Below, piece after piece: positions 22,047 through 34,408 of a DNA stretch of 36,085 bases. Source of the stretch: Candidatus Cryptobacteroides fimicaballi (GTDB taxonomy: Bacteria; Bacteroidota; Bacteroidia; Bacteroidales; UBA932); the NCBI GenBank assembly GCA_018065485.1, contig JAGHTF010000078.1:1-36085 (forward strand), in the 5' to 3' direction. The translations under genes and the position numbers were made by a program. Positions within the stretch are counted from its first letter, which is position 1; each line of letters starts with the position of its first letter. The notes beneath the pieces were generated by a model. It made no database searches, was not told the origin of the DNA, and saw nothing but the letters and a program-made list of their open reading frames with translations.

Positions 22047-23402
22047 TCAGTTCTCGGTTTCTTCATCTACGATATATGCTTCTTCACCCTGCGTGTTTTC
22101 AACCAGAGCCTTCGCCTCCTTCTCCTCCTTCTCTATCCTGCGCTGTGCCAGACGGCTCATACTCAGTATGATTCCGAATGCCGCGCAAAAGCACAGGAAC
22201 GCCGAGTTTCCGTGGCTCACCAAAGGCAGAGTCTGCCCCGTGGTAGGTCCTATGCCCACGTTCACGATCATATGCAGAAAAGCCTGCATCGAAATGAGCA
22301 GTACCATTCCCGCCACGGTGGTCCTGGCAAATTCGTCCTTGCCGCAGTTCCTGGCTATAATAGAGCCTCTCGCCAGCAGCGACACATACAGGAAGATTAT
22401 TATGAACGCGCCCCAAAGCCCGTATTCCTCAATTATGAAACTGAACATATAGTCTTCCGACACGTCCGGCACCATATACCTCTGTGTACTCTGTCCCGGG
22501 CCCTTTCCCAGCACTCCGCCTTCCTTTATGGCAATGCGCGCGCTGTATGGCTGCCTCAGTTTGTCCAGCGCTTCCTGCTTCTCGGTACGGTTGGCGGCCA
22601 TATGGTACTCCTGCTCCATCTCTTTCAGGTTTTTTGTACGGCTGCCCGAAAGCGCCGTTCCCAGCCTCTGGAAAGCCTCTCCGTCCGACAGGCTGTAAAT
22701 CGAATAGCATCCGGCCAGCACCACCGCTCCCAGCAGGATAAGCAGCGTCACGTCCTTCACTCCGCCTCCGCCCAGCAGAATTGTGAGCATCATAATGAAC
22801 CCTATGAATAGGGCAGCGGTATTGCTTCCGGGCAGAATCAGCACGCACACCAGCAGGAATGGGATAAAGATATAGTACGCCTTCCTGGCGGCCTCGGTCT
22901 TGAGCAGTTTGAAGTTGTGCTTGCGGGCAAACCTGTCGAAAACCGTAAGTTCCCCCCGCTTGAGAGCGTCGGTAGCCCACGACAGATAAAGTATCATTAG
23001 CACCTTAACTGCTTCGAACACAAAGAATTGCAGGCCAAATACACTTATCGCCCTCCGCGCTCCGTTCAGCGAAATGCTCCGTATGGGCCCCGAGGTGGGT
23101 CCGAAGTGCAGGAACAGCAACAGCAGCATACTCAATATAAAGCTCCATCTGGCAATAAACCGGTAAACCTCGGTCGAACGGCAGATGTAGCACAGGAAAA
23201 TCACAACCAGGCCCATCCCCACCGTCTTGAACTGGTCCAGCACCATATCCAGCCTGGTTTCCCCCGGCTCCAGCAGGCGCGATGTCGACGAGAATATGCA
23301 CACAATGGAGGTAAGGATAAGCATCAGCACAATTATCCATACCACCTTGTCGCCTTCCAGCCGGCTCATAAGACCGGCTCTACCTTCTTTGCTTTGCGTC
23401 AT
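22047..23402 (-). CDS. ftsW: FtsW/SEDS peptidoglycan polymerase
   Basis: Multi-TM protein, GIGPTTGQTLPLVSHGNSAFL, synteny between murD and murG. Confidence 0.92.
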   Translation of the reverse strand: MTQSKEGRAGLMSRLEGDKVVWIIVLMLILTSIVCIFSSTSRLLEPGETRLDMVLDQFKTVGMGLVVIFLCYICRSTEVYRFIARWSFILSMLLLLFLHFGPTSGPIRSISLNGARRAISVFGLQFFVFEAVKVLMILYLSWATDALKRGELTVFDRFARKHNFKLLKTEAARKAYYIFIPFLLVCVLILPGSNTAALFIGFIMMLTILLGGGGVKDVTLLILLGAVVLAGCYSIYSLSDGEAFQRLGTALSGSRTKNLKEMEQEYHMAANRTEKQEALDKLRQPYSARIAIKEGGVLGKGPGQSTQRYMVPDVSEDYMFSFIIEEYGLWGAFIIIFLYVSLLARGSIIARNCGKDEFARTTVAGMVLLISMQAFLHMIVNVGIGPTTGQTLPLVSHGNSAFLCFCAAFGIILSMSRLAQRRIEKEEKEAKALVENTQGEEAYIVDEETEN

Positions 23403-24742
23403 TACAGTTTTCTTACGGCTTCTTTGAATTGTCTTCCACGGTCTTCATAGCTCTGGAACAGGTCGAAACTTGCACAGCAGGGGCTCAGCAGCACCACGTC
23501 GCCGTCTTTCGCAAACGCGGCGGCGGCCCTTACAGCCTGCTCCGCTCCCAGCGTGTCCACTATCCGGGAACTTCCCACTATATGCTCGTAGGCCTTGTGA
23601 ATCTTCTCATTGTCCACGCCCAGGCACACGATAGCCTTCACTTTCTCCCGCACGAGCTTCTCCAGAATACCGTAGTCGTTGCCCTTGTCCTTGCCCCCGA
23701 CAATCCACACCACAGGTCTTGTCTGGCATTCCAGCGCGTACCAGGCCGAGTCTATGTTGGTAGCCTTGCTGTCGTTGATATAAGTTACTCCTCCCACCGT
23801 GAGCACCGGTTCGAGCCTGTGCTCTATGGGGCTGAACGAGCGCAGCGACTGCCTTATTGTCTCGTCGTCTATTCCGCTTGCCTTGGCTGCAAGAGCCGCG
23901 GCCATAGAATTGTAGATGTTGTGCTTTCCGCCCAGTGACAGCTCTCTCAGATAGATTTCGCTCTCGTTCTGGCCTACGCGCATCACAATCCTGTCTCCAT
24001 CTACGTATGCACCCTGCTTCAACGGCTTCTCCTGGCTGAACGGCAGCATCTGTGCCTTCACTATTATCTTGCTCAGATGCCCCACGGTAATCTTATCGTC
24101 GGAATCAAAGATAAAGCAGTCCTCGGGCCGCAGGTTGCGCGTAATCCTGAACTTTGCCTTAACGTAGTTCTCCATTTCGTGGTCGTAGCGGTCCAGGTGA
24201 TCCGGCGTAATATTGGTTATGATAGCAATGTCGGGGCGGAAGTCGTAGGTGTCGTCCAGCTGGAAGCTGCTGATTTCCAGCACATAGTAGTCGAACTTCT
24301 CGGTCGCTACCTGCAACGCGTAGCTCTTGCCTATGTTCCCTCCCAGGCCAACGTTAAGTCCGGCATTCTTAAGCAGATAGTATATCAGCGAAGTCGTAGT
24401 GGTCTTCCCGTTCGACCCCGTAATGCATATCTTCTTGGCGCTGTCGTAGCGCGAAGCGAATTCGATTTCCGACAGAATTCTGGTTCCCTGCGCGCGCAGA
24501 CTCTTTATCATAGGTGCGCTGGAAGGGATTCCGGGGCTTTTTACCACCTCGTCGGCATTCAGAACAAGTTCGGGGGTATGGCCTCCTTCCTCGAACGGAA
24601 TCTCCCATTTTTTCAGGGTCGCAACGTATTCATCCTTAATCTTACCGTTGTCCGAAAGAAAAACGTCGAATCCCTTGACCTTTGCGAGCACGGCGGCTCC
24701 TACTCCGCTCTCTGCTCCACCCAAAACAACTATTCTTCCCAT
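23402..24742 (-). CDS. murD: UDP-N-acetylmuramoylalanine--D-glutamate ligase
   Basis: CITGSNGKTTTTSLIYYLLKNAGL, NITPDHLDRYDHEMENYVKAKFRI, YINDSKATNIDS. Confidence 0.96.
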   Translation of the reverse strand: MGRIVVLGGAESGVGAAVLAKVKGFDVFLSDNGKIKDEYVATLKKWEIPFEEGGHTPELVLNADEVVKSPGIPSSAPMIKSLRAQGTRILSEIEFASRYDSAKKICITGSNGKTTTTSLIYYLLKNAGLNVGLGGNIGKSYALQVATEKFDYYVLEISSFQLDDTYDFRPDIAIITNITPDHLDRYDHEMENYVKAKFRITRNLRPEDCFIFDSDDKITVGHLSKIIVKAQMLPFSQEKPLKQGAYVDGDRIVMRVGQNESEIYLRELSLGGKHNIYNSMAAALAAKASGIDDETIRQSLRSFSPIEHRLEPVLTVGGVTYINDSKATNIDSAWYALECQTRPVVWIVGGKDKGNDYGILEKLVREKVKAIVCLGVDNEKIHKAYEHIVGSSRIVDTLGAEQAVRAAAAFAKDGDVVLLSPCCASFDLFQSYEDRGRQFKEAVRKL

Positions 24743-24746
24743 AGTT

Positions 24747-25904
24747 CTAGCGAATCTTTAACAGGGCGAGGGTTGCCACGCCCAAAATTATACCTACTAC
24801 CCAGAACCGGCTTACAATTCTCGGTTCGGGAATGTTCTTTTTCTGATAATGATGATGCAGCGGCGCCATAAGGAACACCCTGCGCCCTTCGCCGTACTTC
24901 TTTTTGGTGTACTTGAACCAGTATCTCTGAATGAGCACGCTGGCGCTCTCGGCGAGGAAAATTCCGCACAGCAGGGGCAGCAGCAGTTCCTTGCGGATGA
25001 GCACTGCGCTCACGCCTATTATCCCGCCTATCGTAAGGCTGCCCGTATCGCCCATAAACACCTCGGCCGGGAAGCTGTTATACCACAGGAAGCCCAGCAG
25101 CGCTCCCGCAAAGGCGGCCATATAAACTGCAACCTCGCCCGAATCCCTCAGGTACATTATGTTCAGGTACTGCGCATCGTTCACGTTGCCTCCCAAATAG
25201 GCCAGCACACCCAGCACCACGCCCACAACCGCCGACGTACCCGCGCTCAGCCCGTCCATTCCGTCGGTGAGGTTCGCTCCGTTGGAGCAGGCCAGAATCA
25301 CCAGTATTATAATGGCCATATAGATTCCCCAGGTGCAATAAACGCCCATCTGCCCGCTCAGAGGCGAAAGCCAGGAATAGTCGAACTCGTGTGCCTTCAC
25401 AAAAGGAATTGTGGTTACGATTTTTTCGGTATGGATGGTCTCGCTCAGGCACATCGTAAGTGCTACCGCCAGCCCGAGGCCGAACTGCCCTATGAGTTTT
25501 TTCTTCTCCGAAAGCCCCTCCTTGTTGTGCTTGAACACCTTAATGTAATCGTCGGCAAAGCCCAGCGCCCCGCACCACAGCGTGGTCACCAGCAGCAGGA
25601 TCGTATATATGTTGTTCAGCTTGCATACCAGCAGGGCGCTCGACACCACTGACAGGATAATTATGATGCCTCCCATCGTAGGGGTTCCCTTCTTCTCCAT
25701 CTGGCCCTGCAGCCCCAGGTCCCGTATGGTCTCCCCAATCTGGGCGGCTTTCAGGCGCCCGATTATCCTGCGTCCGGCAATAAGCGACACGCACAGGCTT
25801 ATCACAGCCGCCAGCATTGCGCGGAACGAAATGAAGTTCATAAGATTGATGCCGGGGAAGTCGCCCCCGCATTCCTTGATGTATTCGAACAGATGATACA
25901 GCAT
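24747..25904 (-). CDS. mraY: Phospho-N-acetylmuramoyl-pentapeptide transferase
   Basis: GTPTMGGIIII, GFADDYIKV, NLTDGMDGLSAGTS, MAPLHHHYQKK. Confidence 0.96.
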   Translation of the reverse strand: MLYHLFEYIKECGGDFPGINLMNFISFRAMLAAVISLCVSLIAGRRIIGRLKAAQIGETIRDLGLQGQMEKKGTPTMGGIIIILSVVSSALLVCKLNNIYTILLLVTTLWCGALGFADDYIKVFKHNKEGLSEKKKLIGQFGLGLAVALTMCLSETIHTEKIVTTIPFVKAHEFDYSWLSPLSGQMGVYCTWGIYMAIIILVILACSNGANLTDGMDGLSAGTSAVVGVVLGVLAYLGGNVNDAQYLNIMYLRDSGEVAVYMAAFAGALLGFLWYNSFPAEVFMGDTGSLTIGGIIGVSAVLIRKELLLPLLCGIFLAESASVLIQRYWFKYTKKKYGEGRRVFLMAPLHHHYQKKNIPEPRIVSRFWVVGIILGVATLALLKIR

Positions 25905-25907
25905 AGC

Positions 25908-27314
25908 TTAGTTTTTAGCGGTTCCGAATATTTCTTCTACAATCTCCCTTTCGTCGAAGTGGAGTTTCTCTTTTCCTATAATCTGATAAGTCTCGTGCCC
26001 CTTGCCGGCCAGCAGAATGGTGGCGTTGCCTCCGCACAGCCCGATTGCGGCGCGTATTGCCTCCTTCCTGTCCGCAATGCAGATGCATTTGCGCAGCCCC
26101 TCCTTCGAAAAGCCCTTTTTGATATCCTCTATTATGTCCTCGGTGCGCTCGGTGCGCGAATTGTCCGACGTTACAATCACGGTGTCGCTCAATTTCTCGG
26201 CAATCGCCGCCATCTCCGGCCTCTTTGTCCTGTCCCTGTCCCCGCCGCAGCCGAACAGGCATATCAGCTTCCTTTCCGGAGCCACGTCCCGCAGCGTTCC
26301 CAGCACGTTCTCCAGTGCATCGGGAGTGTGGGCATAGTCTATTATCACGTTAATCCCGTCCGGTCCCTGGATATTCTCCAGCCTTCCTTTCGCGCTCTCC
26401 AGCCGGCTCAGGGCGGTAAGGACCTCGGTCTTGTCGCATCCCAGCTCCACTGCGGCGCAGTATATCGCCAGCAGATTGTAGGCATTGTGCCTGCCTATCA
26501 GACGGGTCCACACCTCCGTGCCGTCGATCTTCAGCATCATCCCGTCAAAGCTCTGCTCCATTATCCGGCAGCAATGGTCGGCAATGCTCCGGCACGAATA
26601 GCTTACAATCCTTGCCGCCGTGTTCTGTACCATCACCGTCCCGTTCTTGTCGTCGATGTTGGTAATTGCAACGGCGCCCTTGCCCAGATTATCGAAGAAA
26701 AGTTTCTTGCACCGCAGGTACTCTGCGAACGTGCCGTGGTAGTCGAGATGGTCGTGGGTAAGGTTCGAGAAGATTCCTTCGGCAAATTCCAGCCCCAGCA
26801 CCCTGTCCTGCTCTACTCCTATGGAACTGACCTCCATAAAGCAGTACTCGCACCCCTGCTCCACCATCTGGGCCAAAAGTGAGTTTATGGTGATGGGGTC
26901 GGCTGTGGTGTTCAGGGTTTCCAGCCTTCGGCCGCCCACGAAATTGGCAATGGTCGAGAGTAACCCGCATTCGTATCCCAGGGAACGCAGCAGGTTGTAC
27001 AGCAGAGTAACCGTAGTGGTCTTACCGTTGGTTCCGGTAATCCCCACCAGCTTGAGTTTCCCGCTGGGATGCCCGTAGAACCTGTCGGCGCACAGCGCCA
27101 GAGCCTTGCGGTCGGCATCCACTACTGCTGCAGCGCCATTTTCTAAGGCCGATGGAATAAAGTCGTGCCCGTCGGCCGATGCTCCCTTGACTGCAAAGAA
27201 CGCGCAGCCTTCGCTCGCCTGCCTCGAATCGCAGCTGATCGAAAGCACCTCGGTGTTTTCGCCACCGTGCAGGATTACTGCTCCTGTACCTTTTATCAGT
27301 TCTCCAAGTTTCAT
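25908..27314 (-). CDS. murE: UDP-MurNAc-tripeptide synthetase
   Basis: VGITGTNGKTTTVTLLYNLL, NLTHDHLDYHGTFAEY, DNSRTERTEDII, LLAGKGHETYQI. Confidence 0.95.
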   Translation of the reverse strand: MKLGELIKGTGAVILHGGENTEVLSISCDSRQASEGCAFFAVKGASADGHDFIPSALENGAAAVVDADRKALALCADRFYGHPSGKLKLVGITGTNGKTTTVTLLYNLLRSLGYECGLLSTIANFVGGRRLETLNTTADPITINSLLAQMVEQGCEYCFMEVSSIGVEQDRVLGLEFAEGIFSNLTHDHLDYHGTFAEYLRCKKLFFDNLGKGAVAITNIDDKNGTVMVQNTAARIVSYSCRSIADHCCRIMEQSFDGMMLKIDGTEVWTRLIGRHNAYNLLAIYCAAVELGCDKTEVLTALSRLESAKGRLENIQGPDGINVIIDYAHTPDALENVLGTLRDVAPERKLICLFGCGGDRDRTKRPEMAAIAEKLSDTVIVTSDNSRTERTEDIIEDIKKGFSKEGLRKCICIADRKEAIRAAIGLCGGNATILLAGKGHETYQIIGKEKLHFDEREIVEEIFGTAKN

Positions 27315-29371
27315 TTCAGAATTATATTAACGTTGCTGCCTTTGTCCACTGCGGTTCCCTTTTCCGGAATCTGTTCCGACACGTGCCCCATACCCTCGTA
27401 TGTGCAGTTCAGCCCCATATTCTCAATCGTGTGCACTGCATCCGACAGGCTCAGACCCTTGAGGTTCGGCATCTTCAGTTTGCCCGCATCGGTTCCCGAA
27501 AGTTCCACAAGCCTGCTTTCCATAGGCACAAGTTCCGCCTTCTTCTCAATCTGCGGTTGCCAGTACGGGTCAATGTCGCAGATATTGTCCACAATGCTTC
27601 TCACGGTTGCGGCGGGTATCGTACCCCCGTAGAAATCCTTGTTCGAGAGGTACGAGTAAACGGTGCAGATTATACTGTACTGCGGGTCCTCCGCCGGGAA
27701 GAATCCCACGAAGGTTCCCTGCTGCTTCTTCTTTCCGTCCTTGGTGTAGCCCCCGCTTCCCAGCGCAACCCTGGCGGTGCCGGTCTTGCCGGCCACGGTA
27801 CATTTGGCGCCTTTCAGCCTTTTGGCCGTACCCTCTTCGGTAACCGCCTTCAGCGCGCGGGTAAGGGTATCGGCGGTAGCTTTCGAGCAGATTTTCCCAT
27901 CCAGTACAACCGGGCCCCGTTCTTCGGTAACCACTCCGTCGGATTCGATGTCCTCTACCAGATACGGCCGCATCATCCTTCCCCCGCCGGCAATGGCGTT
28001 GTAAAAACATAGAATCTGGAGCGGAGTCTCATCTACAGCGTATCCGGTTGCAGCGCCGGTAAGATCGGTCTTGCTCCAATGCTTCGACTTCGGATTGGGA
28101 AGGGTGGGGGAGGCCAGACCCTCGATGTCGAATTCGAAGGGCGTTCCCAGCTTATAGGAATACAGATTGTCGAAGTATTCCTGCGGACGCTTCCCGTAAT
28201 GCTTCACGGCAAGGTATCGGAACATATAGTTCGACGACACCTTGAATCCGTCGATTATGGGGATCTGCTTTCTCCCGGTTTGTCTCTCAAAGTCGGTTAT
28301 GTGCACGTCCGGGGCATATCCGTATCCGGCCAGCACACCCCGGTTGGTAGGTATCGTTTCGTCCAGGCTGTGAAGATGCCCGTTCTCCAGCATCATCATC
28401 AGACAGCTGCTCTTGAATACCGATCCCGGCTCTCCCTTGCGGCCTATCGCCAGGTTCGAGATTTCCTCCAGCTGTCCCGTCTTGCTGTCGCGCAGCAGAT
28501 TCACCATAGCCCGAATGGCGCCTGTCTTCACGTCCATAAGCACTACGCATCCGCCCTCCAGGTCTTTTTCATTCTCAATGTTCGACTTCAGCGCATTGTG
28601 CGCTATAATCTGGTAGTTCACGTCCAGAGTGGTGCGGATGTCGCCTCCGTCGTTGGCCTTCACATACGCGCTGTCGAATCTCTGGACCTGCCCGAAGTCG
28701 GTCCTGGTTGTCCAGAAACGCCCGTCCTCACCGCTCAGGATTGTATCGAACTTGCCTTCCAGCCCTATGTGGCTGTTCTGCACTCCGCTGTCCTTTTCCC
28801 TTACGAAACCGATGGTACGCCGTCCCATAGTGCCGTAGGGGTAGTGCCGTTTATTATTGGTTTCCACAATGAGTCCGCCCCGGTTCTTGCCGCTGCGCAG
28901 GATAGGCAGTTCCCTCAGTTCCTTCAGGGCGTACATATCCAGGCCCTCGCCCAGTTTCAGGTAGCGCGACGCTTTCTTCCGCCCGTTTGCCAGGAGACTC
29001 CGGTACTGGGAGGCACTTTTTCCACCGATTATCCTGCTCAGTCCGTTGCTCAGGTCGGTCAGATTGTTTTCCCACACGCTGTCTTTCTGCACCGTGCAGT
29101 CCAGAAATACTGTGTACTCGGGGTAAGACGTTGCAAGCAGCCTGCCGTCCCTCGCCAGTATATTGCCTCGTTTTGCCTCTATCTTCACTTCCCGAGACGA
29201 GGGGGTAAGCACCCGTTCTATCTCCGGGTCGGGTTTGAAGAACGCCTGTATATATATGATACGCCCTATCAGGCCTATCGAGGCCACCAGCATAAGCAGG
29301 TAGATCGCATAGAGGATTATACCTACCGCATCGGTTTTTTTAGCTTTCGTTTTTTCTTCCGTGGCCATCAT
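27311..29371 (-). CDS. ftsI: Class B PBP / FtsI transpeptidase with C-terminal PASTA domain
   Basis: GSVFKSS (SxxK), SSNYM (SxN), AGKTGTA (KTG); C-terminal MPNLKGLSLSDAVHTIENMGL PASTA-like segment. Confidence 0.95.
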   Translation of the reverse strand: MMATEEKTKAKKTDAVGIILYAIYLLMLVASIGLIGRIIYIQAFFKPDPEIERVLTPSSREVKIEAKRGNILARDGRLLATSYPEYTVFLDCTVQKDSVWENNLTDLSNGLSRIIGGKSASQYRSLLANGRKKASRYLKLGEGLDMYALKELRELPILRSGKNRGGLIVETNNKRHYPYGTMGRRTIGFVREKDSGVQNSHIGLEGKFDTILSGEDGRFWTTRTDFGQVQRFDSAYVKANDGGDIRTTLDVNYQIIAHNALKSNIENEKDLEGGCVVLMDVKTGAIRAMVNLLRDSKTGQLEEISNLAIGRKGEPGSVFKSSCLMMMLENGHLHSLDETIPTNRGVLAGYGYAPDVHITDFERQTGRKQIPIIDGFKVSSNYMFRYLAVKHYGKRPQEYFDNLYSYKLGTPFEFDIEGLASPTLPNPKSKHWSKTDLTGAATGYAVDETPLQILCFYNAIAGGGRMMRPYLVEDIESDGVVTEERGPVVLDGKICSKATADTLTRALKAVTEEGTAKRLKGAKCTVAGKTGTARVALGSGGYTKDGKKKQQGTFVGFFPAEDPQYSIICTVYSYLSNKDFYGGTIPAATVRSIVDNICDIDPYWQPQIEKKAELVPMESRLVELSGTDAGKLKMPNLKGLSLSDAVHTIENMGLNCTYEGMGHVSEQIPEKGTAVDKGSNVNIILK

Positions 29372-29706
29372 TCGCTGATTTTAATCGCAGGGCTTTCGCT
29401 TTCCTGCAGTTCCGAGCTGCGCTCCTGCAGCATTCTTCCCGTAAATGCCCGGCTGCGGTACCTTTCCAGCTCGAAAGTCTTCATCACTTCCGTAGTCTGG
29501 AGTTCCCTTATGATATTCTTGTTCTTTTCCACTTTCCCGAGCGTGTTGTCTATCATAAGGCTTATCCATATAATAAGACATATCAGAAAGAATACGTACA
29601 GGATCTTCCCGAAGTAGCGGGTTATGCCGAGCCTCAGCAGGAACTCCCCCTTGAGCACTGCCGCCGCACTGTTGCCTATGGTAACCAGTATATTCTTGAA
29701 ATCCAT
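29368..29706 (-). CDS. FtsL-like division protein
   Basis: 112 aa, one TM segment, coiled-coil-like C-terminal part, located between rsmH and ftsI. Confidence 0.75.
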   Translation of the reverse strand: MDFKNILVTIGNSAAAVLKGEFLLRLGITRYFGKILYVFFLICLIIWISLMIDNTLGKVEKNKNIIRELQTTEVMKTFELERYRSRAFTGRMLQERSSELQESESPAIKISE

Positions 29707-29709
29707 CCT

Positions 29710-30567
29710 TTATATTTTTATGGCTGCGCGCAGCTTCGCGCTGCGTGCGCGCGTGTTCTTTCTTATTTCTTCCTCGCCGGGCACTATGGGCTTGCGGTTT
29801 ACCGCTTCCAGTACTGTGCTCTGCCTTATAAAGTTCTTTACCGTCCTGTCTTCCAGCGAGTGATAGGTAATCACTGCCAGCACCCCTCCCTGTTTCAGCG
29901 ATGCTGCCGCCCCTTCCAGGAATTTCTCCAGAGAGCGCATTTCGTCGTTCACTTCTATCCGCAGGGCCTGGTAAACCTTGGCCAGTACCTTGTGCTCCCC
30001 ATTGCGCGGCAGGGCGGCGGCAAGGGCCTCGTCCAGCTGCCCTGTAGTGAGAATGGACGCCTTCTCCCGGGCTTTTTCTATGAGCGCGGCCATTTGCCGG
30101 GCATTGCTCACCTCACCGTAGGTCCAAAGCACCCTCTCCAGTTCTTCGCGCGGGTACGCGTTTATAATGTCGGCGGCGGTTTTCTCTCCCTTCGAGTTCA
30201 TTCTCATATCCAAGGGAGCGAAGAAGCGGAACGAGAATCCCCTCTGGGCCGTATCCAGCTGATGCGAAGAAACTCCGAGGTCGGCCAGAATCCCGTCCAG
30301 CCCTTGAGGACAGTCCCTTAGAACGTAATTGTGTATGAACCGGAAATTATTGCGGATAAGTGTAAAGCGATTGTCGTGCGGTGCGTTTGCGGCGGCGTCG
30401 GCGTCCCTGTCGAAAGCCATCAGAGTCCCTTGCGGCCCCAGCCTTGAGAGAATCTCTCTGCTGTGGCCGCCTCCCCCGAAGGTAGCGTCGGCATACGCGC
30501 CGTCCGCTCTGCCTATCAGGGCGTCCACGCTTTCCTTTAATAATACAGGGTTGTGATATTCACTCAT
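29710..30567 (-). CDS. rsmH: 16S rRNA (cytosine1402-N4)-methyltransferase
   Basis: YHNPVLLKESVDAL, DATFGGGGHSREIL, GILADLGVSSHQLD, ISYHSLED-like ITYHSLEDRTVKNF. Confidence 0.97.
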   Translation of the reverse strand: MSEYHNPVLLKESVDALIGRADGAYADATFGGGGHSREILSRLGPQGTLMAFDRDADAAANAPHDNRFTLIRNNFRFIHNYVLRDCPQGLDGILADLGVSSHQLDTAQRGFSFRFFAPLDMRMNSKGEKTAADIINAYPREELERVLWTYGEVSNARQMAALIEKAREKASILTTGQLDEALAAALPRNGEHKVLAKVYQALRIEVNDEMRSLEKFLEGAAASLKQGGVLAVITYHSLEDRTVKNFIRQSTVLEAVNRKPIVPGEEEIRKNTRARSAKLRAAIKI

Positions 30568-30579
30568 CTAAAGCTTCTC

Positions 30580-31029
30580 CTACTTTTTGGAGAGGCTTCT
30601 TGCAATGGCGACAAAATCTTCTGTGTTCACCCGGGCATTTGCGAAATTCTGTTCTGCCCATATTTCCAGACGGAAATTGACGCCGAAGAAGACAGCTTCC
30701 CGGTCCACTCCTATTGCGTCAAGAAGATATTTTGGAATCGATATGCGGCCGAATTTGGAATCCGGTTCCACAATAATGCAGCCCAGCATATACTGTCTCC
30801 AGAACTGCAGGTGGGCGGGGTTGAAGAAATCCACCCTCTCCCGAATCCTGTCGGTTTCCCTTTCCCACTCGGGGTAGGGCCACATTTCCAGACAGTTGTC
30901 GTACAGGCTTTTCTTGATTACAAACCGCTTGTCTTCACCCTCGGGCACAAGCCGCTTGAACGGCGCGGGAAAGACCAGCCTTCCTTTGTCGTCAACCTTC
31001 GACGGATATGTTCCTATGAATGCAGTCAC
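30580..31029 (-). CDS. mraZ: Transcriptional regulator MraZ
   Basis: FIGTYPSKVDDKGRLVFPAPFK (AbrB-like/MraZ repeat), second repeat RISIPKYLLDAIGVDREAVFFG. Confidence 0.95.
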   Translation of the reverse strand: MTAFIGTYPSKVDDKGRLVFPAPFKRLVPEGEDKRFVIKKSLYDNCLEMWPYPEWERETDRIRERVDFFNPAHLQFWRQYMLGCIIVEPDSKFGRISIPKYLLDAIGVDREAVFFGVNFRLEIWAEQNFANARVNTEDFVAIARSLSKK

Positions 31030-31064
31030 GGCGGTTTAAAAATTTTCTTATACGCAATTCGTGG

Positions 31065-31072
31065 CAAATATA
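31065..31072 (-). promoter_or_regulatory. Putative -7 box TATATTTG of the mraZ/dcw promoter
   Basis: CAAATATA on + strand, 36 bp upstream of the mraZ start; no clear -33 box. Confidence 0.5.
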
Positions 31073-31081
31073 AGGAATTTA

Positions 31082-31116
31082 TTCCAAAGTTTTCCACTTT
31101 ATTCCAAAATTTTCCA
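31082..31116 (-). promoter_or_regulatory. Candidate MraZ box array: four TGGAA half-sites at 10-bp spacing
   Basis: TTCCA on + strand at 31082, 31092, 31102 and 31112 (minus strand GTGGAAAATTTTGGAATAAAGTGGAAAACTTTGGAA), just upstream of the mraZ -7 box. Confidence 0.65.
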
Positions 31117-31158
31117 CTAAAAATTTTTTCGGCCTTTAGCGTGAAAAAAAACGATAAT

Positions 31159-31190
31159 TTTGTTTGCATAAGAAAAATTTTCTATATTTG
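31159..31190 (+). promoter_or_regulatory. Putative promoter TTTG-N20-TATATTTG for the 1050-aa lipoprotein
   Basis: Good Bacteroidota -33/-7 match; ATG at 31256 gives an AT-rich leader of about 60 nt. Confidence 0.65.
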
Positions 31191-31255: not shown

Positions 31256-34200
31256 ATGAAGAAATTCTTTAAAATTTTGATGGTGCTCGCGCTGCTCAGC
31301 GGTGCTGCACTCAGCTGTACAAAGGATTATTCTAAGGAGATTGCAGACGTTCAAAAACAGAACCAGGACCTTCAGGCCCTCGTTGCATCTCTGCAGAATG
31401 CCCTCAACAGCACAAACGCTACAGTCAGCCAGCTTAACAGCACAAGCGACAAGCAGGCTGCAGACATCGCAAAGATTGTCAGCGATATCAATGCACAGAA
31501 GGGAGATATCTCTGCCCTCATGGCTGATGTTGAGACTATCGAAGCATTGAGTGAGGTCTTTGCACAGCTTGGTGTAGATCTTTCTGAAGAAATTGAAGAT
31601 CAGGCTCTTCTTATTGCAGCTCTGCAGGCACAGGCCAAAGAGCTTGAAGAAGGAATTGAAACTGTAGATGGCAAGGCAACTGCAAATGCTGCCGCAATCG
31701 CAAAGATTGATGAGACTCTCAAAGGCATCGCTTCTACTCTCGATCTTCTTGAGGAAGGAATCGCCGATATCGAGGCTAACAAGACCGCAATCGCTGCTAA
31801 CAAGACCGCTATCGAAACGGCACAGGCCGACCTTGCAAAGATTAAGGAGCAGATCAAGAGCTTGAGCGCCCGTCTTACCAACATCGTTGCAGCTCCTGCA
31901 AAGGATGTAGAGATCCAGACCTTTGAGTGGGCAAACATCAAGAAGACAACCGTGAATATGAACTTCATCGTTGCTCCCACCGAGGCTGCAGAAGCTGTTG
32001 CCGAAGGCTTCAAGAACGGAAAGGTTGATGTTACACTCTTTATCAATTCCGGCGTGGATAGAATTTTAAATATTTCAAAAGCTAGGGTTGATTCTTGCGA
32101 CTACGTGATTATACCTAACAAGGTTGAAGCTGCGGAGGATGGTATTATCACCATTTCTGCTATTGTTGACACCACCCTTGCTAATCTTGAGGCACCGGAA
32201 CTTAGTAAACATGATGGTCTGACCTACGATTATTACGCAACTCTCGCAGTATCCGGTGAAGACGAGGTTGGTCCTTGGCAGCGCGTAAGCGACCCTGTTA
32301 AGCCTATCATCAACAACACGGGTAAAGATGTTACATATGCTTGGTATAAGGGTGACAAGGAAGTAGAAAAAGCTTCTGCTGACTTTGTTCTTAAATCAAC
32401 CGCCTTCGGTGCTAAGGATTCAGTAGCAGTATTTGGAAATGTTCTTACCATCGTTAAGGCAGACTGGGATTGGAAGTCCGAAGAGTACAAGGTTGAAAAT
32501 ATCATCGCCGGTTACGAACCTAAGTTCGTCATTGGTTCAACCGCTTATTCAGTTGACGAATTCAAGACCGCATTCGACCTTCCCGACTCTCTTAAGATTA
32601 CTGCACCTCGTTTCGTTGACCTCAAGCAGACATTCACCGAACCCTTCGAGTGGGGTAGTACTATAACAGACATCAATAAACCGGCCGACACCGATAGCGC
32701 CCTCTTCAAGGCAACTGTTAAGACCGACAGCACTATCAACGCTTACGGCTTCTCAATTGTACTGCCTGATAAAGAAGCCGACCAGGTTGAGGCTGTAGGT
32801 AAGGCAACTGTATTTGCTGCAACTAAGATTGCTTTTGGTAAAGTTGCTACTCCTTGCTCTCTTGGAGTTAAGTTCGTTCAGAGAATCGGCAAGCACGTAG
32901 AAAAAGAAGAAGCTGCCGACGGTCTGACTGCTGAGTTTGGTATTACAAAAGTTGGTGGAAGCTTGCAGGCAGCAAAGATTGACACCACATTCGCTCCGGT
33001 TGCTTGGAAGTCAACAACTCAGGTTGGTAAAAGTACGGATGCAAAGATTATCAATGACAAGAAGGAGCAAGTAGGGACTGCAACAATCACACCGAATTCT
33101 AACAACACCAAGTTTGTTGATGTTCAAGTTAACGTTCCTTACGCAGAAAATGAACAGAAGCTGACAATCGTTCTTGAGGATGATGCACAGAAGAACGGTA
33201 AGGGAGTTATAGTTCTCGAACACGGCGACTACATCGACCTCACAGTAGATCCTTATCATGCTCCCGTTATAGTAGAGGCAACTTCTAAGGACAAAGTATA
33301 TATTAGCAAGAAGGCCAATGCTGCGAAAACCTTCAAACTCAACAAGAGCGTTAACGACATCTTGGGTGACTATCACGAATGGCTCATTAAAGACGGTAAG
33401 CTTGAAAATGCTGATTCTACAATTGTGAAGGATTGGTTTAAGGTTGATGGCACCAGTGTAGATGCTAAGCAGGGAACAGCAAAGGTTGGTGAAGCAAAGC
33501 TTAGAATCATTAATGATACTCTTACTGTTGTTGATTTTAAGGTAACTGACAAGAACAAATTCAAAGAGGGAACTTCTGTTACAATCGAAAAGAAAGATAG
33601 CATCGATCTCGTAAATAAGTTCACTTACAAGGTTTCCTTCACTCCTGAAAAGGTTGGTGTAAAGGTTGTAGCAATCCCCGGCTTCGTTGTTGACAATGTA
33701 ATTACTGTTGAAGGCAAACTTAACGAAGCAGAAGACGACTATGTAATCGACGATATCAACCTTGCAAACTACTTTAAGGTAACTGGTCTTGAAAAGAAGA
33801 GCGCTGATGATGCTGACATTAAGGTTAAGTTCAGTGATGATACTACAGGATTAATTTACAGTATAGTAAATGCTGTCGATTCAATCTATGTCGCAACTGA
33901 TGAGGGTAAACTTCCCACAGCGGCTAAGATTGGTTGGGGTGATCTTAAGGCTACAAGCTTCGTGCTCAAAGCTCAGGCTCTCCTCGAAGGCTCTCCGGTT
34001 GGTGACCCTGTTACCGTAACAGTTCAGACTGCAGATCCTATCCTTACTATCGATGATGTAAACATCAAAGCTACCCTCCACGGACAGGACTCTACATTCC
34101 AACTTCTCGATAGCCTCAAGATTTACAGCATCCTTGACAAGACCAAGAACATCTATTCAGACGGCTTAACTCCTTATTGTGGCGAAGACGACGGTGTTAA

Positions 34201-34408
34201 ACTCAATAAGGAAGATAAGTCCGATTGGACCTGCACTGTTAACGGTCAACCGTATGAGGGCGCAGAGCTCTTCACTTTCGATGACGAAAAGAACGAATTG
34301 ACTTATAAGAAGCACGATGCAGTTGGTCAGGTTGTTATCACTATCCCTTATAAGTTCACATATAAGTTTGGTGAGAAGACGTTCAATGTAATTCTTACAA
34401 TTAACTAA
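31256..34408 (+). CDS. Large surface lipoprotein: N-terminal coiled coil plus beta-rich repeat region
   Basis: MKKFFKILMVLALLSGAALSC lipobox; heptad-like region from about aa 22 to 215 (IADVQKQNQDLQALVASLQNAL...IKEQIKSLSARLTNI); later segments look beta-sandwich-like. Confidence 0.85.
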   Translation: MKKFFKILMVLALLSGAALSCTKDYSKEIADVQKQNQDLQALVASLQNALNSTNATVSQLNSTSDKQAADIAKIVSDINAQKGDISALMADVETIEALSEVFAQLGVDLSEEIEDQALLIAALQAQAKELEEGIETVDGKATANAAAIAKIDETLKGIASTLDLLEEGIADIEANKTAIAANKTAIETAQADLAKIKEQIKSLSARLTNIVAAPAKDVEIQTFEWANIKKTTVNMNFIVAPTEAAEAVAEGFKNGKVDVTLFINSGVDRILNISKARVDSCDYVIIPNKVEAAEDGIITISAIVDTTLANLEAPELSKHDGLTYDYYATLAVSGEDEVGPWQRVSDPVKPIINNTGKDVTYAWYKGDKEVEKASADFVLKSTAFGAKDSVAVFGNVLTIVKADWDWKSEEYKVENIIAGYEPKFVIGSTAYSVDEFKTAFDLPDSLKITAPRFVDLKQTFTEPFEWGSTITDINKPADTDSALFKATVKTDSTINAYGFSIVLPDKEADQVEAVGKATVFAATKIAFGKVATPCSLGVKFVQRIGKHVEKEEAADGLTAEFGITKVGGSLQAAKIDTTFAPVAWKSTTQVGKSTDAKIINDKKEQVGTATITPNSNNTKFVDVQVNVPYAENEQKLTIVLEDDAQKNGKGVIVLEHGDYIDLTVDPYHAPVIVEATSKDKVYISKKANAAKTFKLNKSVNDILGDYHEWLIKDGKLENADSTIVKDWFKVDGTSVDAKQGTAKVGEAKLRIINDTLTVVDFKVTDKNKFKEGTSVTIEKKDSIDLVNKFTYKVSFTPEKVGVKVVAIPGFVVDNVITVEGKLNEAEDDYVIDDINLANYFKVTGLEKKSADDADIKVKFSDDTTGLIYSIVNAVDSIYVATDEGKLPTAAKIGWGDLKATSFVLKAQALLEGSPVGDPVTVTVQTADPILTIDDVNIKATLHGQDSTFQLLDSLKIYSILDKTKNIYSDGLTPYCGEDDGVKLNKEDKSDWTCTVNGQPYEGAELFTFDDEKNELTYKKHDAVGQVVITIPYKFTYKFGEKTFNVILTIN

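Follow-up and report, generated by a model that had tools for sequence, protein, structure and literature searches.

The question raised by this locus is which factor recognizes four evenly spaced TGGAA repeats upstream of mraZ in the window, the term used here for the whole 36,085-nucleotide stretch of DNA that was analysed. An initial annotation had described the repeats as a candidate MraZ operator which lay over the -33 region, about 10 bp from the -7 element, and which was built from a half-site specific to Bacteroidota. All genes of the cluster are on the minus strand: mraZ (30580..31029) encodes a 149-aa protein from a GTG start at 31029 and is followed by rsmH (mraW; 29710..30567), the second dcw cluster gene, by ftsL (FtsL_2; 29368..29706), by a gene for an ftsI-type penicillin-binding protein (27311..29371; scores fall under the curated cut-offs, and the name is a class assignment only), and by murE, mraY and murD (23402..27314). 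This gene order, mraZ-rsmH-ftsL-penicillin-binding protein-murE-mraY-murD, is the standard dcw order.

On the minus strand, TGGAA is found at 31116-31112, 31106-31102, 31096-31092 and 31086-31082, with a spacing of exactly 10 bp, and the array ends 9 bp before TATATTTG (31065..31072), the Bacteroidota-type -7 element (TAnnTTTG) of the mraZ promoter, whose position relative to the boxes is conserved. Both the exact 10-bp steps and the placement reported by the initial annotation were confirmed, with the array occupying the stretch immediately before the -7 element. No run of even three TGGAA, and none of four TGG, arose when the 226-bp intergenic region was dinucleotide-shuffled 20,000 times; window-wide, three TGGAA-N5-TGGAA pairs were found against 0.07 expected, a number reached by none of 100 shuffles, and the exact TGGAA triple is unique to the array in the 1.33-Mb assembly (~77% complete). 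When resolved into 10-nt units, all on the minus strand, the array consists of box 1 (31111..31120, TTAGTGGAAA), which carries GTGG and whose 10-bp register is kept in the genus; box 2 (31101..31110, ATTTTGGAAT), a degenerate unit in which TTG replaces the GTG core; box 3 (31091..31100, AAAGTGGAAA), an exact AAAGTGK; and box 4 (31081..31090, ACTTTGGAAT), with a degenerate TTGG core, the core T being 14 nt upstream of the -7 element, which is the conserved spacing. Boxes 1 and 3 (AGTGGAAAA) and boxes 2 and 4 (TTTGGAATAA) form a 20-bp repeat, so that the GTG core is present in only two of the four.

To assess conservation of the phasing, the sequences preceding mraZ were collected for 55 genomes of the window's GTDB genus, 31 from other families of the order, 25 other members of the class and 45 from other classes in the phylum. 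In every group, distances between TGG trinucleotides on the coding strand peaked only at 10, 20 and 30 bp, a pattern that was absent from the other strand in all four groups; pairs at 10 bp numbered 87 against 3 expected in the genus, 45 against 1 in the order, 37 against 1 in the class and 63 against 4 in the phylum. A phased-box finder returned at least four boxes in 54 of the 55 genus promoters, and three boxes was the commonest count in the rest of the class. Because the finder requires TG and its scoring leans toward the published consensus, the TGG spacing constitutes an independent test. The pattern is thus conserved upstream of orthologous mraZ genes, within the genus and phylum-wide, and together with the 10-bp phasing this supports the original proposal of an MraZ operator.

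The array also follows mraZ in its absence. In 14 genomes without a detectable mraZ, no array was found upstream of rsmH, the best score in 900 bp being 7-14; mraZ-bearing promoters gave a median of 27 and a 5th percentile of 16, and the 95th percentile of shuffled sequences was 11. Seven or eight of the 14 belong to one family, so the independent losses are fewer than 14, and in draft genomes the absence of mraZ may sometimes reflect an assembly gap. Within these bounds, loss of MraZ goes with loss of its boxes. An MraZ operator is recognized by lying directly upstream of mraZ where the dcw cluster begins, by at least three direct repeats with a 10-bp period, and by being kept and lost with mraZ; the window site adjoins mraZ at the cluster head with four repeats at exactly 10 bp, and arrays of its kind are retained and lost with the gene. 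As a separate observation within the genus, mraZ appears to have been deleted at locus L217 (genome G031), where rsmH lies directly behind a promoter in which the -7 element survives along with one box remnant, GTGGAGAA.

In every group the per-position box frequencies read A-A-A-(G)-T-G-(G/T)-N-N-N; across the genus, G occupies position 4 in 49% of boxes and TG occupies positions 5-6 in ~100%, as the finder demands. This agrees with the Mollicutes MraZ repeat (AAAGTGKN3)3, K being G or T, of Fisunov et al. 2016 as quoted in PMC5282649 and PMC8475190, and the E. coli K-12 boxes fall in the same register as those of the window (TCAGTGGGAA|ATTGTGGGGC|AAAGTGGGAA). The suggestion that TGGAA is a Bacteroidota-specific half-site was therefore not upheld, since the boxes fit AAAGTGKN3 (PMC5282649) and the E. 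coli register. Nor is its distinctive base a feature of the phylum: A at position 8 accounts for 94% of boxes in the genus, 35% in other families of the order and 5% in the rest of the class, where T prevails (61%), and G prevails in other classes (60%). At the level of sequence, the window box is an instance of the general MraZ box AAAGTGKNNN that appears to differ at position 8 only, with A as a family trait; taken with the published consensus, the position 8 frequencies indicate that TGGAA is the family flavour of this box.

The window MraZ matches PF02381 with 59.9 bits (cut-off 23) as a double domain with two DXXXR loops, D13-R17 and D90-R95, whereas its score against the NCBIfam equivalog TIGR00242 (62.3 bits) falls below the curated cut-off of 98.35; the protein is a divergent member, and its naming rests on Pfam, synteny and fold. 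Across 55 diverse MraZ proteins the only invariant residues are D13, R17, D90, R95 and W124, that is, the two DXXXR motifs and one tryptophan. In the AlphaFold model (pLDDT 94.7), both DXXXR motifs occupy equivalent strand-to-strand loops, and the fold matches M. pneumoniae MraZ (1n0e, TM ~0.8) as well as the M. genitalium MraZ cryo-EM entries 9r4j and 9sz7, which are titled 'in complex with its promoter' and 'in complex with 4 box promoter', respectively.

The second DXXXR loop, a part of MraZ predicted to contact DNA, is one residue longer in the window's family, D90-S-K-F-G-R95 (codons at 30745..30762, minus strand) against D-x-x-G-R elsewhere; the insertion is present in 54 of 54 genus proteins compared and in 0 of 99 outside the family. 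Loops and boxes were sampled from 25 genera of the family. In 21 of these the insertion is present, nearly always as PDxKxGR (one with Gln), and the boxes carry A at position 8; in three genera without the insertion (g144, g159, g161) position 8 is mainly G or T; and in the remaining genus, g154, with the loop PDE(I/N)SGR, it is C (AAAGTGCCAT or GTGGCA). On an MraZ tree built without these loop columns, g144, g159 and g161 branch as sister to all other genera, with g154 nested next to a genus of the Lys/A type. There are thus only two loop changes, each with a matching box change, which makes the covariation suggestive only; a sign test over independent pairs has n=2, at which significance is unattainable. 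A mutual-information analysis of MraZ columns against position 8 was dominated by phylogeny, and the second loop alone was followed up from these columns because it is a DXXXR motif. A-rich boxes without the insertion arose in other families too (L008/L022, L012), so A does not require the insertion. Within the window's family, the position 8 base and the loop nevertheless look coupled, suggestively so. It is possible, and we propose it tentatively, that the second DXXXR loop reads position 8, with no insertion specifying G or T, PDxKxGR specifying A and PDE(I/N)SGR specifying C, and that this joint specificity switched at least twice. Such natural MraZ-operator variants provide material for testing how the MraZ ring selects bases. 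Separately, the g154 loci with C-type boxes (L255, L265, L284, L287, L301, L302) present an apparent operator-specificity switch.

Comparison with characterised systems places the window site among known MraZ operators. The Mollicutes operator, for which a four-box promoter complex has been solved (9sz7 title), shares the 10-bp direct repeats, a GTG/TGG core and an A-rich 5' part; by comparison, the window has four boxes of which two carry TTG for GTG, a position 8 fixed as A, and a site upstream of a -7 TAnnTTTG promoter. The E. coli operator (mraZ1p) has three boxes in the same register and shares the mraZ-rsmH order, and the Burkholderia cenocepacia site heads its dcw operon with four 7-nt repeats and 3-nt spacers (PMC7761207). 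Position 8 is G in E. coli, however, and both operators lie downstream of the -10 element, that of B. cenocepacia overlapping the start (PMC7761207), whereas the window site lies upstream of the -7 element. The latter placement recurs in Bacteroidia: the last-box core is 13-15 nt upstream of TAnnTTTG in 51 of 55 genus, 23 of 31 order and 17 of 25 class promoters. In other classes, the last box is ~50 nt downstream of TTGAC, i.e. past -10. From these distances, operator placement varies between lineages while box phasing is constant. The window site is very probably an MraZ operator of ordinary layout, lineage-specific in its base and protein loop. The MraZ-operator system, characterised so far in Proteobacteria, Mollicutes and a few Gram-positives, is thereby extended to Bacteroidota, with precise promoter geometry. 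An intermediate placement was observed at five loci of one family of the class (f43: L101, L103, L107, L114, L145), where the MraZ boxes, rather than preceding the -7 element, seem to share sequence with it (AAAGTGTTATTTTGTG).

Judged from the sequence evidence, the four repeats are almost certainly where MraZ, the regulator encoded by the cluster itself, docks. Several protomers of one MraZ oligomer would bind cooperatively, one to each 10-bp box and all along one helical face; as the boxes cover the -33 region and immediately precede the -7 element, bound MraZ would block RNA polymerase, and the blocked transcript, mraZ-rsmH-ftsL-ftsI-murE-mraY-murD, would close a negative feedback loop. In the window's family, the A at position 8 would have changed together with the one-residue insertion in the second loop. 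We consider it very probable that this joint account, a cooperative, autoregulatory MraZ operator that represses the dcw transcript and whose position 8 and protein loop co-changed, is the best explanation. Among the observations that weigh against this account, two of the four window boxes are without the GTG core, and the co-loss set comes mainly from one family. In the literature, binding or expression data were not found for any Bacteroidota MraZ.

The sign of regulation is the point at which a rival comes closest. The placement over the -33 region suits polymerase exclusion, yet is compatible with activation; being upstream of the -7 element, unlike the E. coli and B. cenocepacia operators, the site is one at which an activator could also sit. 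Counted from the inferred start, the boxes span ~-28 to -58, a position from which an oligomer bound there could touch RNA polymerase, whereas the E. coli and Burkholderia repressor sites overlap the start, and overexpression of MraZ in M. gallisepticum accompanied raised FtsZ (PMC8475190). Conversely, loss of mraZ in M. genitalium raised ftsZ, MraZ represses dcw in E. coli, and the -33 region is itself covered by the boxes; activation by MraZ is on balance rather unlikely. A reading in which a different regulator binds the repeats, or in which they are A-tract-like curved DNA with no connection to MraZ, would accord with their AT-rich, strictly helically phased character and with the poor match of window boxes 2 and 4 to AAAGTGK, but the array tracks the presence of mraZ, its TG core and MraZ consensus are kept phylum-wide, and position 8 tracks the MraZ loop, leaving this reading very unlikely. 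The probability of a G-quadruplex element, as reported at the S. aureus mraZ promoter (PMC11796246), is negligible: there are four GG tracts on one strand, but no GGG, the G4Hunter score is 0.25, and many genus boxes are TGTAA, which destroys the tracts. A G-quadruplex promoter element would be recognized by four GGG tracts or a G4Hunter score above ~1.2, and this candidate was rejected.

A final rival takes the first box and its flanking DNA as putative DnaA boxes, a site reporting replication state. It draws on a motif, TTWTYMACA, found at a fixed offset upstream of the first MraZ box in 52 of 111 Bacteroidia promoters against 0.6 expected overall, as estimated from 360 kb of genomic background (22/31 order, 11/25 class, 19/55 genus, 0/45 other classes). 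Three mraZ-less genomes (L218, L220, L221) retain TTWTYMACA or a one-letter variant of it upstream of rsmH, and the motif is therefore not an MraZ box. In the window, however, no TTWTNCACA-type DnaA 9-mer occurs upstream of box 1, the other strand of which reads TTTTCCACT, and elsewhere the element complements the MraZ boxes rather than replacing them; as an account of the array, this rival is highly improbable.

The element itself resembles a DnaA box. Its forms are TTATCAACA, TTATTAACA and TTTTCCACA and, once in the genus, exactly TTATCCACA, and in the genus its orientation is inverted. Individual examples of TTATCAACA/TTATTAACA or of the inverse, TGTTGATAA, were seen in L003, L007, L070, L031, L133 and others. 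A mechanical search for DnaA-box clusters beside dnaA found none; the oriC of Bacteroidetes is usually distant from dnaA (PMC4755523). In finished genomes, TTATCMACA clusters number a few per genome at most, with none for a reversed-pattern control, and coincide with the GC-skew switch in G195, G288 and G234 and not in others, a coincidence which is supportive, short of proof. Precedents exist in other bacteria: in B. subtilis the promoter region of ftsL is bound by DnaA (PMC8203912), and in E. coli the mioC locus has a DnaA box across which MraZ binds (PMC4446571). The DnaA-box-like neighbour raises the testable idea that replication initiation is linked to the division cluster at this promoter in Bacteroidia.

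Further features lie on either side of the operator. A second TATATTTG lies at 31183-31190 on the plus strand, in the opposite orientation and ~60 bp from MraZ box 1, and is likely the -7 element for the divergent gene at 31256-34408 (plus strand), which encodes a 1050-aa protein with a lipoprotein-like N-terminus and a coiled-coil start; a Pfam search with this protein gave no match. On the other side, the mraZ leader contains GCGTATAAGAA (31045..31055, minus strand), a motif that recurs in mraZ leaders of the window's family only; as GCGTATAWGAA or GCGTGAAA it was found in 42 of 128 family leaders and 0 of 101 outside the family, mostly 13-17 nt downstream of where the -7 element begins.
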